From the NCBI GenBank assembly GCA_944371905.1, contig CALVYA010000011.1, forward strand, positions 1 through 38,626: DNA of 38,626 bases, in the 5' to 3' direction. Below, in pieces: positions 5,178-38,626 of this stretch (position 1 is the first letter of the stretch; each line of letters starts with the position of its first letter). The translations under genes and the position numbers were made by a program. A model generated the notes under the pieces. It worked only from the letters and a program-made list of their open reading frames with translations, was not told the DNA's origin and made no database searches. The DNA is from an uncultured Bacilli bacterium (GTDB lineage Bacteria > Bacillota_I > Bacilli_A > RF39 > UBA660).

Positions 5178-6377
5178 TTATAAAATTATTTCAAAAATTT
5201 TATCTTGTTGTTTTAACGCATTAATTAATTGATCAATTTCTTCTTTTGTATTATACAAATAAAAACTAGCTCGACAGGTATTAGAAACATTAATTTCATC
5301 TTTTACGATTTTTGCACAATGATTTCCAGCTCTTACACAAATATTAAAATGATTTAAAAACACAGCCGTATCTTGACTAAATATTTTATCTATATTAAAT
5401 ATAACAATTCCGGATTTAGAATTTTGATTATATATTTTAATATTAGGAATTTTTAACAATTCTTTCACTGCATATTCTTTTAACTCTAATTCGTATTTAT
5501 GAATATTTTCTAATCCTATATTAGAAAGATAGTCAATAGCTGCCCCCATTCCTAATACTCCTGCAATATTCTGAGTACCAGCTTCTAACCTTTCTGGTAA
5601 TGGTTTATATTCTAATTCTCCACTACTTTCAAAATAGGAATTCATTCCACCACCATATTCGTTAGGAACTAATTTATTTAACAAATCATATTTCCCATAT
5701 AGAACTCCTATTCCAGTTGGTCCTAGCATTTTATGAGCCGAAAAAGCTAAAAATGAAATATTATTTTTTTGAACATCAATTGGTAAATGTCCAATACTTT
5801 GTGCTGCATCTACTACAAATAAAATATTCTTGTCTTTACATATCTTACCAATTTCTTCAATTGGTCGAATATCTCCTACAGCATTTGTAATATGTGCAAG
5901 AGATATAACTTTAGTTTTAGAAGTAATAGATCTCAATAAGTTATCCACCGTTAATTCATGTTCATTATTTAATGGAATATATTTAACAATTACTCCTAGT
6001 CTTTTGGATAATTCTATCCAAGGTAAAATATTAGATGCGTGCTCACTTTTAGTTATTAATACTTCATCATTAGGTTTTAAATAGTTTTTCATAAAACCAA
6101 AAACAATAGTATTAATGGATTCTGTAGTTCCCTTCGTATAAATTATTTCATCTCGTCTAGTAGCGCCAATAAAATCCTTTATTTTATCACGAACTTTTTC
6201 ATACTTTTCATCTACTATTTGGCTAATAGTATAATCTCCTCGATGAGCATTTGCCGTATATTTAGTATAATAATCCACTACTTCTTTCACTACACATTTA
6301 GGTTTCAATGTAGTAGCGCCATTATCAAAGTAAATTACATTACTATTATTCAACATTTCAAAATCTTCCCGATTCAA
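5178..6377 (-). CDS. sufS: Cysteine desulfurase SufS
   Basis: A PLP-dependent enzyme that takes sulfur from cysteine and forms an enzyme persulfide for Fe-S cluster assembly. Motifs (numbered from the GTG at 6386): YFDNGATTLKP near 19-29, SEHASNILPW near 114-123, VVDAAQS at 191-197, the PLP lysine K219 in SAHKMLGPTG and the persulfide cysteine C357 in VRAGNHCAK, followed by SNTCRASFYLYNT. The length is normal (about 400 aa). There are two candidate starts: GTG at 6386, which overlaps the RBS, and TTG at 6377, which lies 7-8 bases after AGGAGGTGA. I chose TTG. The gene opens the operon with sufU and an unknown gene. Confidence 0.93.
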   Translation of the reverse strand: MNREDFEMLNNSNVIYFDNGATTLKPKCVVKEVVDYYTKYTANAHRGDYTISQIVDEKYEKVRDKIKDFIGATRRDEIIYTKGTTESINTIVFGFMKNYLKPNDEVLITKSEHASNILPWIELSKRLGVIVKYIPLNNEHELTVDNLLRSITSKTKVISLAHITNAVGDIRPIEEIGKICKDKNILFVVDAAQSIGHLPIDVQKNNISFLAFSAHKMLGPTGIGVLYGKYDLLNKLVPNEYGGGMNSYFESSGELEYKPLPERLEAGTQNIAGVLGMGAAIDYLSNIGLENIHKYELELKEYAVKELLKIPNIKIYNQNSKSGIVIFNIDKIFSQDTAVFLNHFNICVRAGNHCAKIVKDEINVSNTCRASFYLYNTKEEIDQLINALKQQDKIFEIIL

Positions 6378-35161: not shown

Positions 35162-35434
35162 TTAATTAACTGCGTCTTTTAGTGCTGATCCAGCTTTAAA
35201 TGTAACAGCGTTTCTTGCAGCAATTTTAACTGTTTCACCAGTTTGTGGATTACGTCCTTCACGAGCAGCTCTTTTTGAAACAGCAAATGTTCCAAATCCT
35301 ACTAATGGTACTTTATCTCCTTTAACTAATGCTTCAGTGATAGTAGCAAATGTAGCATCAATTGCTCTTGTAGCGTCTGCTTTTGTTAATCCAGCAGCAG
35401 TTGCAACAGCTTCTACTAATTCTGCTTTTTTCAT
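35162..35434 (-). CDS. hup: HU histone-like DNA-binding protein
   Basis: HU bends and compacts DNA as a dimer. The 90-aa protein is a near-textbook HU: MKKAELVEAVATAAGLTKADA, the beta arm with VGFGTFAVSKRAAREGRNPQTGE and VKIAARNAVTFKAGSALKDAV. RBS GGAGG. Its neighbour upstream on the same strand is the spoIVA fragment, the same order as spoIVA-hbs in B. subtilis, which supports the view that the fragment is in its native locus. HU has its own promoter and terminator. Codon use is richer in GC than neighbours, as expected for an abundant protein. Confidence 0.97.
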   Translation of the reverse strand: MKKAELVEAVATAAGLTKADATRAIDATFATITEALVKGDKVPLVGFGTFAVSKRAAREGRNPQTGETVKIAARNAVTFKAGSALKDAVN

Positions 35435-35544: not shown

Positions 35545-35820
35545 TTAAATTACTATTGCAATTAAATTATTCGATCCCTTATTTACTACTTTACTTAAAA
35601 TATTACTTAATTTATAACGAACATTATCTGGCATTAAAGAAATTTTCGATTGAATACCTTCTTGAACAATGACATCTAAACTGCGTCCAAAAATTTCGCT
35701 CTTCCATATGTTAGATGGATTGGTTTCATAATCTTTCATTAAATAATTAATTAATTCTTTACTTTGTACTTCACTACCAATAATTGGTTCAAAAGTGGAC
35801 TGAACATCTACTCTTATCAT
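35545..35820 (-). pseudogene. spoIVA: C-terminal fragment of spoIVA (interrupted sporulation gene)
   Basis: These 91 codons align end to end, by my recollection of the B. subtilis protein, with the last 91 of 492 residues of SpoIVA, the ATPase that forms the basement layer of the spore coat. Matching blocks are MIRVDVQSTFEPIIG, QSKELINYLMKDYE, IFGRSLDVIVQEGIQSK and SLMPDNVRYKL, ending GSNNLIAIVI. No RBS precedes the ATG, and upstream codons in the same frame (..IHM) match for only two to three residues before recombinase DNA takes over. The N-terminal 400 residues, with the GTPase-like Walker A, are not in the window. It is therefore a split gene: either dead, or rebuilt when the adjoining element is excised. 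Native context (upstream of hup) is kept. Confidence 0.9.
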
Positions 35821-37447
35821 ATGAATAAGAACTATTAAACTGCTGTGATTTGTTTTTTATATAATCGGCTTCTATTTCGGTGCCGACTTTTAGGTATATT
35901 TTTAATTTAACTTTCTTTTTATCATCCATATGATATACGACAATTTTATCTAATAATTCAAATAATACTTCATCACTAGGATTATTAACTTTATTTTCAA
36001 TTAACAATTCTAATTTTTTTATTTCTTCTTCCATATTATTAGCTTTTAATTCTTCTTCTTTAATGACATTTAATTCTTTTTCTATTTTACTTAATCTTAA
36101 ATTACAGTCATCATTTCTTTCTTTAAACTCTTTATCACTAATAATTTCATTTATATTATGACTTAATAATTTATCTTTTTCCTTTTTAATCTTTTCTATT
36201 TCGCTCAACTTTTTATTTTTTTCTTTCTCAAAATCTCTTAAACTTATATTTTCTCTATATAAATTAGTTAAATTATAAATAATTGACTTTCTTTGATTTA
36301 TAAAATCTATTAAATTATGTCTTAATATTTTAACTAATTCTTTTTCATATAAAACTGGTGTTTTACATTTATCATCTTTACTTCTATTATTATGAGGACA
36401 TATCCATACGACTTCATCATCTTTTGTCTTATAATTATATACTTTTCTATGAAAATGTCTATTATGTTCATTACATACTATTTTACCACTAAATTTATAT
36501 CTATTTTGATAAACTCTTTTATCAACATCTTTATACTTATCACTTCTTTGATTATATATCTTTTGTGCTAAATCCCATATTTCTTCACTTACAATAGGGG
36601 GAACAGTATCATAATCTTTATACATAATCCAATCTTCTTCATCTTTTCTAACAATTGTTTTTAATTTATAGTCAACAATCGTTGTTTTATTTCCACAATA
36701 ATAACCTTTATATTTTGGGTTTTTAATAATATTTGCTACTGTTGTCATAGCAAGTACATTTCCATTTCTATTTTTAAAACCTTCTTTATATAATTCCCTT
36801 GCTACTGCTGCCATTCCATATTTACCACTACAATATAATTCAAATATTCTTTTAACCATTTTTGCTTCTTCTTCATTTATAACTAACTTACCATCTTTTT
36901 TATCATAACCCCATATATCATTATTACCTAAAACTCTGCCACTCTTAATAGATCTTTTAAAACCAAATTTAACTCTTTCTGATAATTTCCTAACTTCATC
37001 TTGTGCTAATGATGTCATTATTGTTAGTCTTAATTCTGAATCAGCGTCTAATGTATTTATATTATCATTTAAGAAATATACACCAACACCATCTTTTAAT
37101 AATTCTCTTGTATTTTTAATACTATCTAATGTATCCCTTGCAAACCTTGATACTTCCTTTGTGATAATTAAATCAAATTTACCTTCTTTAGCATCTTTAA
37201 TCATTTTATTAAAACTATCTCTTTTATTTGTTGATGTCCCACTTATTCCTTCATCAACATAACCTTCAACAAATTCCCAATTTTCTTTTTCTCTTATCAT
37301 TTCTTCAAAGAAATTAACTTGATTTTCTAATGAATTTAATTGTTCATATTTATCTGTTGAAACCCTTGCATAATAGGCAACTCTTAATTTTAAATCAAAT
37401 ACCGTTTTCCCAGTTTTAAATTCTTCTCTTATTTTATATAAATCCAT
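35789..37447 (-). CDS. Large serine recombinase (site-specific integrase/excisionase type)
   Basis: This recombinase cuts and rejoins DNA at attachment sites. The resolvase-type catalytic domain (about 20-165) has nucleophile S30 in YYARVST, DEGISGT and KEVSRFARDT. The recombinase domain (about 190-300) includes GYDKKDGKLVINEEEA and NPKYKGYY. A zinc ribbon (about 325-361, C325, C350, C361) and a long coiled coil (about 405-490) are typical of large serine integrases. The C-terminal ten residues (YDKSRCSVHF) are read from spoIVA DNA in another frame, so the gene crosses the element boundary. Start ATG follows AAAGGTGATG. It follows a 91-aa gene by 14 bases. SpoIVCA of the skin element is a functional parallel. 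Confidence 0.93.
   Translation of the reverse strand: MDLYKIREEFKTGKTVFDLKLRVAYYARVSTDKYEQLNSLENQVNFFEEMIREKENWEFVEGYVDEGISGTSTNKRDSFNKMIKDAKEGKFDLIITKEVSRFARDTLDSIKNTRELLKDGVGVYFLNDNINTLDADSELRLTIMTSLAQDEVRKLSERVKFGFKRSIKSGRVLGNNDIWGYDKKDGKLVINEEEAKMVKRIFELYCSGKYGMAAVARELYKEGFKNRNGNVLAMTTVANIIKNPKYKGYYCGNKTTIVDYKLKTIVRKDEEDWIMYKDYDTVPPIVSEEIWDLAQKIYNQRSDKYKDVDKRVYQNRYKFSGKIVCNEHNRHFHRKVYNYKTKDDEVVWICPHNNRSKDDKCKTPVLYEKELVKILRHNLIDFINQRKSIIYNLTNLYRENISLRDFEKEKNKKLSEIEKIKKEKDKLLSHNINEIISDKEFKERNDDCNLRLSKIEKELNVIKEEELKANNMEEEIKKLELLIENKVNNPSDEVLFELLDKIVVYHMDDKKKVKLKIYLKVGTEIEADYIKNKSQQFNSSYSYDKSRCSVHF
35813..35829. other. Candidate attachment-site core at the spoIVA/element junction
   Basis: CTTATCATATGAATAAG is an imperfect palindrome (CTTAT, CATATG, ATAAG with one extra base). 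The homology to SpoIVA begins here: the codons for IHM just upstream of the fragment fit B. subtilis SpoIVA ...SIHMIKVDV, and codons before that do not. Serine integrases recombine at short sites with imperfect symmetry and a 2-bp core. The exact crossover cannot be fixed without the other junction. Confidence 0.5.
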
Positions 37448-37461
37448 TTATATCATCACCT

Positions 37462-37737
37462 TTATACTTTAATTATTTCTGCTATTGGCTTTATTCTTTC
37501 TAATAATATCTTTTCAACTTTCTCATATAACTCTTTTGATATATTTCCTTTTTCATATAATTCTTTATTTATTTTTAATTCTAATTCATAAGAACATAAT
37601 ACATTTTTAAATATATTAAAAGGCTTCATATCTTTTATAGTTTCATCAATATATGTGGTATCAATATTTCCAAACTCATCTTCTTCATATTCTTTTACAA
37701 CTTTGTCATTTTCATCTAATTCATAATAATATGCCAT
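37462..37737 (-). CDS. Unknown 91-aa acidic protein preceding the large serine recombinase
   Basis: I do not recognise this protein. The N-terminal half is acidic (YYYELDENDKVVKEYEEDEFGNIDTTYIDE) and the C-terminal half is a charged helix with KINKELYEKGNISKELYEKVEKILLERI. There is no signal peptide or membrane segment. ATG follows AGGAGG, and the stop is 14 bases ahead of the recombinase start, so the two are translated from one mRNA. Small proteins encoded next to large serine recombinases are sometimes recombination directionality factors, which switch the enzyme from integration to excision. Its position allows that role, but nothing in the sequence proves it. Confidence 0.7.
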   Translation of the reverse strand: MAYYYELDENDKVVKEYEEDEFGNIDTTYIDETIKDMKPFNIFKNVLCSYELELKINKELYEKGNISKELYEKVEKILLERIKPIAEIIKV

Positions 37738-37950
37738 ATATATTCCTCCTATTTAAGATTATTCACAATCATAAATAATATAATAATTATTTATCTACAA
37801 AATGTATAAATAAATTATAAATTACTCATAATAATAAATTGCCCCTAAATATTCTCCTATATATATTATACGATTTTTATTTTTCAAAAATTGCCATTTT
37901 GAGCCTTATTTTTAAAATTTCTTTAATTTTTTAGCATTTTTTATCAATTT
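37738..37950. other. AT-rich intergenic stretch inside the element
   Basis: About 210 bp between the resolvase-type gene and the 91-aa gene. I see no ORF with an RBS and no strong hairpin; only AT-rich runs (several TATATA and TTTTTA stretches) that may hold the promoter for the 91-aa/recombinase unit. Confidence 0.4.
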
Positions 37951-38553
37951 TTAATCATTTTGGCTATTTTTTATTAAATTATAAAATGTATTATTCTTTA
38001 AACCTAATAATTCCATTGCTTCTTTACTTTTAATTTTTTTATCTTTCCATTTACTCATAACTTCATCATAATTACTTGGCTTTTCTATTTTAGGTCTTCC
38101 AAATTTAACACCTTTTTTTAAAGCATTTTCTATTCCTTCTTTTTGCCTTAATTTTATAAAACTTCTCTCTTGCTCTGCAACATAACTTAATATTTGCAAA
38201 ACTAAATCACTTATAAATGTTCCTAATAAATCTTTATTATTTCTCGTATCTAATAAAGGCATATCAATAACGACTATATCTGCTTTTATATTTTTTGTTA
38301 TATCTTTCCATTCTTCAATAATCATATTATAATTTCTACCTAATCTATCAATACTCTTAATTACTAATAAATCATTTTCTCTTAATATATGCTTTAATAT
38401 TAAATAATTTTCTCTATTAAAATCTTTTCCACTTTGTTTATCTACATAAATATCTCTTTCATCAATATTAAAATCTTTAAAGGCATTTATTTGTCTTTCT
38501 TCATTTTGTTCTTTACTGCTAACCCTTGCATACCCAAAAATTTTATTATTCAT
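37951..38553 (-). CDS. Small serine recombinase (resolvase/invertase family)
   Basis: A 200-aa site-specific recombinase with a catalytic domain of the Tn3-resolvase/Pin type. The nucleophile is S12 in GYARVSSKEQNEERQ. VDKQSGKDFNRENY, DLLVIKSIDRLGRNY (with the arginines of the active site) and SYVAEQERSFIKLRQKEGIENALKKGVKFGRP follow. The C-terminal helix-turn-helix covers about 165-195 (SKEAMELLGLKNNTFYNLI). RBS AAGGTAGG lies 6-7 bases upstream. It is the second recombinase of the element, about 500 bases from the large one. It could resolve element dimers, invert a segment or be a second mobility module. Confidence 0.92.
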   Translation of the reverse strand: MNNKIFGYARVSSKEQNEERQINAFKDFNIDERDIYVDKQSGKDFNRENYLILKHILRENDLLVIKSIDRLGRNYNMIIEEWKDITKNIKADIVVIDMPLLDTRNNKDLLGTFISDLVLQILSYVAEQERSFIKLRQKEGIENALKKGVKFGRPKIEKPSNYDEVMSKWKDKKIKSKEAMELLGLKNNTFYNLIKNSQND

Positions 38554-38562
38554 ATAAAAAAC

Positions 38563-38625
38563 CTACCTTGCTAAATAATTACTAAATTCCCTAAAAATTC
38601 TATCAAATATGCTATCTTCAAATGT
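38563..38625 (-). CDS. C-terminal end of an unknown gene at the window edge
   Basis: A frame open to the window edge on the minus strand ends in TAG at 38563, nine bases before the resolvase start. The last visible residues are TFEDSIFDRIFREFSNYLAR. The stop overlaps the resolvase RBS, as expected in an operon. With only 20 codons it could be chance. Confidence 0.35.
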   Translation of the reverse strand, partial: TFEDSIFDRIFREFSNYLAR

Positions 38626-38626
38626 T

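Follow-up and report, generated by a model that had tools for sequence, protein, structure and literature searches.

The stretch of DNA analysed here (the window; 38,626 nucleotides) comes from an uncultured Bacilli bacterium of the gut (GTDB lineage Bacilli_A; RF39; UBA660), and holds one part of the sporulation gene spoIVA fused to the gene of a large serine recombinase (LSR). The host draft genome (1.29 Mb, 93.6% complete, 43 contigs) is called G000; other G-numbers denote the compared genomes, L-numbers the LSR loci, and C a contig. The window is the whole of contig G000:C11, and therefore stops inside the element that carries the recombinase. The features of this contig end are listed below.

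35162..35434 (-): hup/hbs (HU-like), an open reading frame (ORF) of 90 residues named from its sequence and its place beside spoIVA; native downstream neighbour and 3' flank of the insertion
35545..35826 (-): C-terminal part of spoIVA, SpoIVA residues ~398-491 (SpoIVA_C, TIGR02836); 100% identical to the joined protein
35819..35826 (-): attachment (att) core ATTCATAT at the host-element junction; partner copy at G000:C3 1700-1707; minimal CATAT in relatives
35789..37447 (-): LSR, 552 residues (Resolvase 2e-31, Recombinase 9e-22, zinc-ribbon domains)
37462..37737 (-): SHOCT-like acidic protein, 91 residues, isoelectric point 4.6; weak SHOCT_2 match; candidate recombination directionality factor (RDF)
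37859..38002 (-): control region 5' of the 91-residue gene and the LSR, 76% identical to the region 5' of the Rep-like gene (G000:C3 1364-1510); includes TCGTATAATATATATA
37951..38553 (-): small serine recombinase (resolvase/invertase), 200 residues (Resolvase 3e-23; PHROG DNA invertase 2e-47)
38554..38626 (-): contig end inside the element, matching the 3' end of a 77-residue gene in the G349 and G176 elements; alignment from base 6219 of the G349 element

The two halves of spoIVA

The window holds about 93 last codons of spoIVA, which adjoin hup and run into the LSR. The ORF at 35545-35820(-) matches Pfam SpoIVA_C (E value 4e-28) and TIGR02836 positions 402-492. The initial annotation had placed a spoIVA C-terminus beside hup, with a same-strand LSR at the end of an inserted element; the SpoIVA_C, Resolvase and Recombinase matches confirm this, and the two ORFs overlap by 32 bp. 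It had also called for an N-terminal half at the far end of the element, a frame restored on joining, and no second intact copy, and for a search of related genomes for intact spoIVA; the analysis bore these out as follows. A search of G000 for the SpoIVA ATPase domain gave a single match, at C3 1603-2901(-). This N-half covers TIGR02836 positions 1-405 and continues into a tail that the element encodes; its neighbours are der and an ORF of 79 residues. The sequence ATTCATAT is common to both junctions (C3 1700-1707 and window 35819-35826). Joining the halves at ATTCATAT gives one frame of 491 residues (...APSIHM/IRVDV..., the slash marking the joint). Three congeners have an uninterrupted spoIVA of 491 residues (99, 96, and 94% identity). 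In the search of G000, neither half turned up a second time.

The contigs C3 and C11 lie separate in the assembly; we infer their link because each end has its match in elements that other genomes carry whole, or almost whole, on one contig. Compared with the single-contig elements of G349 and G176, the C3 side including spoIVA is 91-98% identical, and the C11 side is 96-97% identical. An assembly or binning artefact, in which the halves derive from chimeric contigs or another strain, would fit the position of the halves on two contigs of a draft bin, and also the missing middle of the element (a search of the G000 bin did not find the central cargo). However, independent assemblies and isolates contain the entire element together with both halves on a single contig, and the core is exact and the frame restored. 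An artefact is thus refuted for the phenomenon, and extremely improbable in G000. On comparison of these sequences, it is regarded as established that a site-specific mobile element splits the gene and that the gene can be restored exactly.

The C-terminus of the LSR (window 35789-35826) lies in spoIVA DNA, and excision would change the tail of the protein. Because the LSR frame continues through the core, its last residues are host-encoded; they differ between hosts in the tails compared in G349 and G176. Stops in the 98% LSR matches (G176/G349) were considered as signs of another genetic code or of pseudogenes. Both explanations were rejected, since the stops sit in the host-encoded tail past the att core.

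Composition and mobility of the element

The element of G349 lies on a single contig and has 7115 bp; that of G176 has 7611 bp, its contig ending in the N-half. Complete elements are also present in G394 (7125 bp), L095 (7124 bp), and G396 (6242 bp). In the direction of spoIVA, the gene order is a Rep-like gene (278 residues), an XRE repressor on the opposite strand, a nuclease-like gene, a macro-domain gene, a variable gene, the 77-residue gene, the resolvase, the 91-residue gene, and the LSR. The nuclease-like protein (188 residues) was assigned by eye; the macro-domain protein (177 residues) matches Pfam Macro (2e-10). The Rep-like protein, at most a candidate for the relaxase or rolling-circle Rep of an integrative mobilisable element, contains an HxH stretch (DWHLHILLVS) without family match; its structure model is poor (mean predicted local distance difference test score 50), and it was not found in viral contigs. 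Phage structural or packaging families were not found among the nine element proteins, and the only PHROGs of known function are the repressor and the recombinase.

The cargo is swapped between conserved ends. Beside the macro-domain protein, a 262-residue protein of no assigned function is present in G349 (L069), and a KAP NTPase in G176 (L071). The KAP NTPase matches the candidate PADLOC family PDC-S20. As this is the sole match of the cargo to defence families, assignment to a known defence system was rejected.

The LSR is 98-99% identical among G000, G176, G349, L095, and L099; the SpoIVA proteins of those hosts share about 70-80% identity with the G000 protein. In other genera, elements related to this one (~7 kb, 96-97% DNA identity) occupy the same Ser-Ile-His-Met (SIHM) codons. 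Judging from these comparisons, the element is site-specific, non-phage, and recently mobile between genera. The reconstructed attP contains a 50-bp dyad with 19/25 matching positions; none of 500 shuffles was as good. At L107, L110, and L122, the LSR is oriented opposite to spoIVA. A palindromic core as the cause of inverted insertions is unsupported for this element; its attP dyad centres on CA, which is non-palindromic.

The best NCBIfam matches of the LSR belong to the families of the SCCmec Ccr recombinases and the cyanobacterial XisF. XisF also rebuilds a split gene. The LSR is not a member of either family: the matches to CcrC (2e-32; 112 vs a cut-off of 900 bits) and XisF (1e-23; 84 vs 375) are far below the cut-offs.

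Split spoIVA and other target genes in related genomes

The initial annotation had treated the split spoIVA as a single case. The split is real, but it is one of many, at two sites of spoIVA and also in spoVD. The family sample comprised 385 genomes, of which 335 had spoIVA; 49 with partial spoIVA matches were inspected, and some members were without spoIVA altogether. In about 22 genomes, both halves abut site A (codon ~121). Site B, the SIHM codons, is split in six genomes (G000, G084, G176, G188, G348, and G349). Hence spoIVA is split in about 27 of the 335 spoIVA-bearing genomes (~8%), with G349 counted at both sites. In G349 the gene is interrupted twice, at codon 121 and at SIHM, by unrelated LSRs (C7 6286-6651, C70 26866-27738, and C70 19511-19786; L069, L070). 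Five site-A cases have the whole element (3.6 to 13.9 kb) on one contig. Joining restored the full frame in these five and in the tested site-B cases; a partial protein resulted where the N-half itself was cut. The site-A LSRs are about 25% identical to the site-B LSR, and therefore two recombinase lineages took spoIVA.

Three contigs (G006:C16, G194:C18, and G294:C65) start exactly at spoIVA codon 121. This fits an assembler fork, with integrated and empty sites coexisting in the sample, but is only suggestive. Several candidates were rejected as split genes: G013 has two contigs overlapping within spoIVA and no insertion was seen there, G295 looks like a frameshift, and G327 and G285 look like contig breaks.

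Outside the family, spoIVA is split at SIHM by related LSRs in Bacilli as well as Clostridia. A part of spoIVA lies beside or near the LSR in 39 of 80 LSR relatives from GTDB genomes, nearly all cut at the same codons. The shortest element spans 3.5 kb (L106); the longest, in Anaerovorax, spans about 119 kb, measured as the distance between halves. The carriers include the isolates Anaerovorax sp. IOR16, Pseudoflavonifractor capillosus An827, Flavonifractor An10, An92, and An306, Marasmitruncus massiliensis, and Papillibacter cinnamivorans; in every one of them spoIVA is present only as a single N-half and a single C-half. The Marasmitruncus element has 5184 bp and the core ATACATAT, and its halves join in frame. 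The halves flanking the An92 and An10 elements also join in frame, with a best core of just 3 bp. In Papillibacter cinnamivorans DSM 12816 (L161, G393), the spoIVA halves lie in the middle of two different scaffolds. This points to a later rearrangement, by which restoration would be blocked.

Marasmitruncus massiliensis Marseille-P3646 has been described as motile and spore forming (PMC9584879), and in C. difficile functional spores depend critically on SpoIVA (PMC5607322). Since this strain has the split spoIVA alone, the simplest reading is that the gene would be rebuilt when spores form.

In gut Bacilli, many of the other LSR relatives lie against part of a transpeptidase gene (its C-terminal ~223 residues), with SpoVD as best NCBIfam match (3e-61). 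In several loci mraY comes next after the spoVD part (by eye). The relatives split spoVD at TPIQQ (L141, L159, L162, L169, and about 20 further loci). Of six single-contig cases, four (L141, L159, L162, and L169) read ...FGQGxSVTxxQQ... when joined at a 5-7-bp core, as in the uninterrupted stretch of the congener G004. The related bacteria are uncultured Bacilli/Tenericutes, and the hosts with split spoVD include Candidatus Aphodocola and Pelethosoma. G000 itself has two more LSR elements in spoVD, near an SCN motif and near TPIQQ (C17 23883-25466, L085; C1 101594-103171, L086). Thus three such elements are present in G000, one in spoIVA and two in spoVD. In all five genomes of the genus spoVD looks interrupted, and a separate intact transpeptidase gene (713-residue frame) is present. 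Part of a D,D-carboxypeptidase-like gene, near the active-site motif, abuts an LSR at three loci (L128, L176, and L177), and the N-terminal part of sigK at one locus (L136).

In the LSR tree (n=87) the targets cluster, with 11 changes vs a shuffled mean of 40; near-copies inflate this contrast. It appears somewhat more probable than the contrary that one LSR clade, paired with a small partner of its own, has become specialised for genes of sporulation and of the cortex (spoIVA at SIHM, spoVD at TPIQQ, and a few D,D-carboxypeptidase and sigK genes), and that an unrelated LSR lineage took spoIVA codon 121. Several elements would then have to be excised per spore, including from early mother-cell genes.

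Probable excision of the element and its biological meaning

The most probable interpretation is that an integrative element of about 7 kb inserted itself in spoIVA by its own LSR, and that the LSR and the small protein excise it, probably in the sporulating mother cell. Insertion would have occurred in the conserved stretch encoding Ser-Ile-His-Met (codons ~398-401). The LSR, with the small protein as directionality factor, would later excise the element as a circle and restore spoIVA. Excision is likely to take place in the mother cell; a time soon after sigma-E activation is suggested with less certainty. The spore would thus get its coat while the forespore chromosome retains the element, as with skin. 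Because spoIVA is not needed in growth, it would be a harmless residence.

The 91-residue protein is a candidate RDF by analogy with CD1234 of the C. difficile skin element (skinCd). Homologues of its gene were detected by hidden Markov models. At 64 of 85 loci they directly precede the LSR, a count that includes seed loci since the seeds came partly from the same 85 loci; in several others they lie elsewhere within the element. The 91-residue gene and the LSR form one operon. This operon and the Rep-like gene have about 150 bp of their upstream regions in common, including a TATAAT-like -10. Oscillospirales elements have a conserved CATATAGT box before the small gene, and a sigma-A-like LSR promoter was seen by eye in several Clostridia elements. 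This arrangement would be expected if the small gene is a developmental switch.

Several points weigh against excision during sporulation. The common upstream region and its sigma-A-like -10 suggest control by the element itself. No clear sigma-E or other sporulation promoter was found ahead of the 91-residue gene and the LSR in this element; a sigma-E/K promoter scan of 68 upstream regions gave a weak signal only, which was not used as proof. The host is known as an uncultured draft genome, and its sporulation is putative. Purifying selection on both spoIVA halves is strong (vs the congener G001), but may largely predate the insertion. Excision is here deduced from sequence, in which this element differs from skin.

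The control region and the weak promoter signal, together with the recent movement between genera with variable cargo, would also fit an ordinary integrative element. In that case spoIVA would be a conserved attachment site dispensable in growth; the element would excise only on moving, independent of sporulation, and no proper spores would form until it leaves. However, Marasmitruncus massiliensis is described as spore-forming with the split gene alone, the split occurs in about 8% of the family's spoIVA-bearing genomes and is fixed at two sites by unrelated LSRs, and the related LSRs concentrate on sporulation genes. Excision independent of sporulation is possible, but is the less likely course. 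A dead spoIVA, with a permanent insertion in a lineage that is losing sporulation, is rather unlikely. Both sporulators and non-sporulators have been predicted in RF39, and multiple sporulation losses in it and in related orders (PMC10868615); some family members are without spoIVA, and the insertion in G000 may be too young for decay. Against permanent loss, both halves retain an open, full-length frame in every case tested, and the LSR, the small gene, and the att sites are intact. G000 also keeps spo0A, an intact sigK (TIGR02846 above cut-off), sigG, a sigE-like gene, a sigF/G-like gene, and spoIIGA.

Restoration of spoIVA by excision would resemble several known systems. The interrupted sporulation genes named in published lists are sigK, spsM, spoVFB, gerE, and yabG (PMC10747680, PMC5595907). 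The initial annotation knew of no case in spoIVA, and no report of spoIVA as target of a skin-like, prophage, or insertion interruption was found in the open-access literature searched. The skin elements in sigK (SpoIVCA in B. subtilis; skinCd in C. difficile, with CD1231 and the RDF CD1234) also have a serine recombinase at one end and also split a sporulation gene, which in their case is rebuilt by precise excision. In skinCd the LSR is constitutive, and the small acidic RDF is under sigma-E/SpoIIID (PMC5025042); the 91-residue protein is likewise small and acidic. In contrast to skin, the target here is spoIVA, an earlier mother-cell gene that is under sigma-E in C. difficile, and the element is about 7 kb, non-phage, and under other operon control. 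The gin element in gerE (B. cereus; GirC, GirX) is similar in being non-phage, with several serine recombinases, a short core, and recent transfer between strains; it carries restriction-modification cargo (PMC5595907). It was compared with the spoIVA element by description, and differs in its target, its size (28.6 kb), and its three LSRs. The yin element in yabG, vfbin in spoVFB, and SP-beta in spsM are also mobile elements in sporulation genes, and are excised during sporulation (PMC10747680, PMC4191935). These are prophage-like and in late genes, and each has few known hosts, in contrast to the many genera with a split spoIVA.

In summary, DNA excision probably rebuilds a key spore gene more often than has been recognised. 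The described intervening elements are mostly in late genes of few species, whereas SpoIVA is the base of the spore coat. As spoIVA acts earlier, the rearrangement would have to occur soon after mother-cell expression begins. The coding sequences that the LSRs target are defined and conserved, and the timing of excision could be tested directly in the cultured carriers. Gut bacteria with a split spoIVA may be scored as non-spore-forming by annotation pipelines when they are able to form spores.

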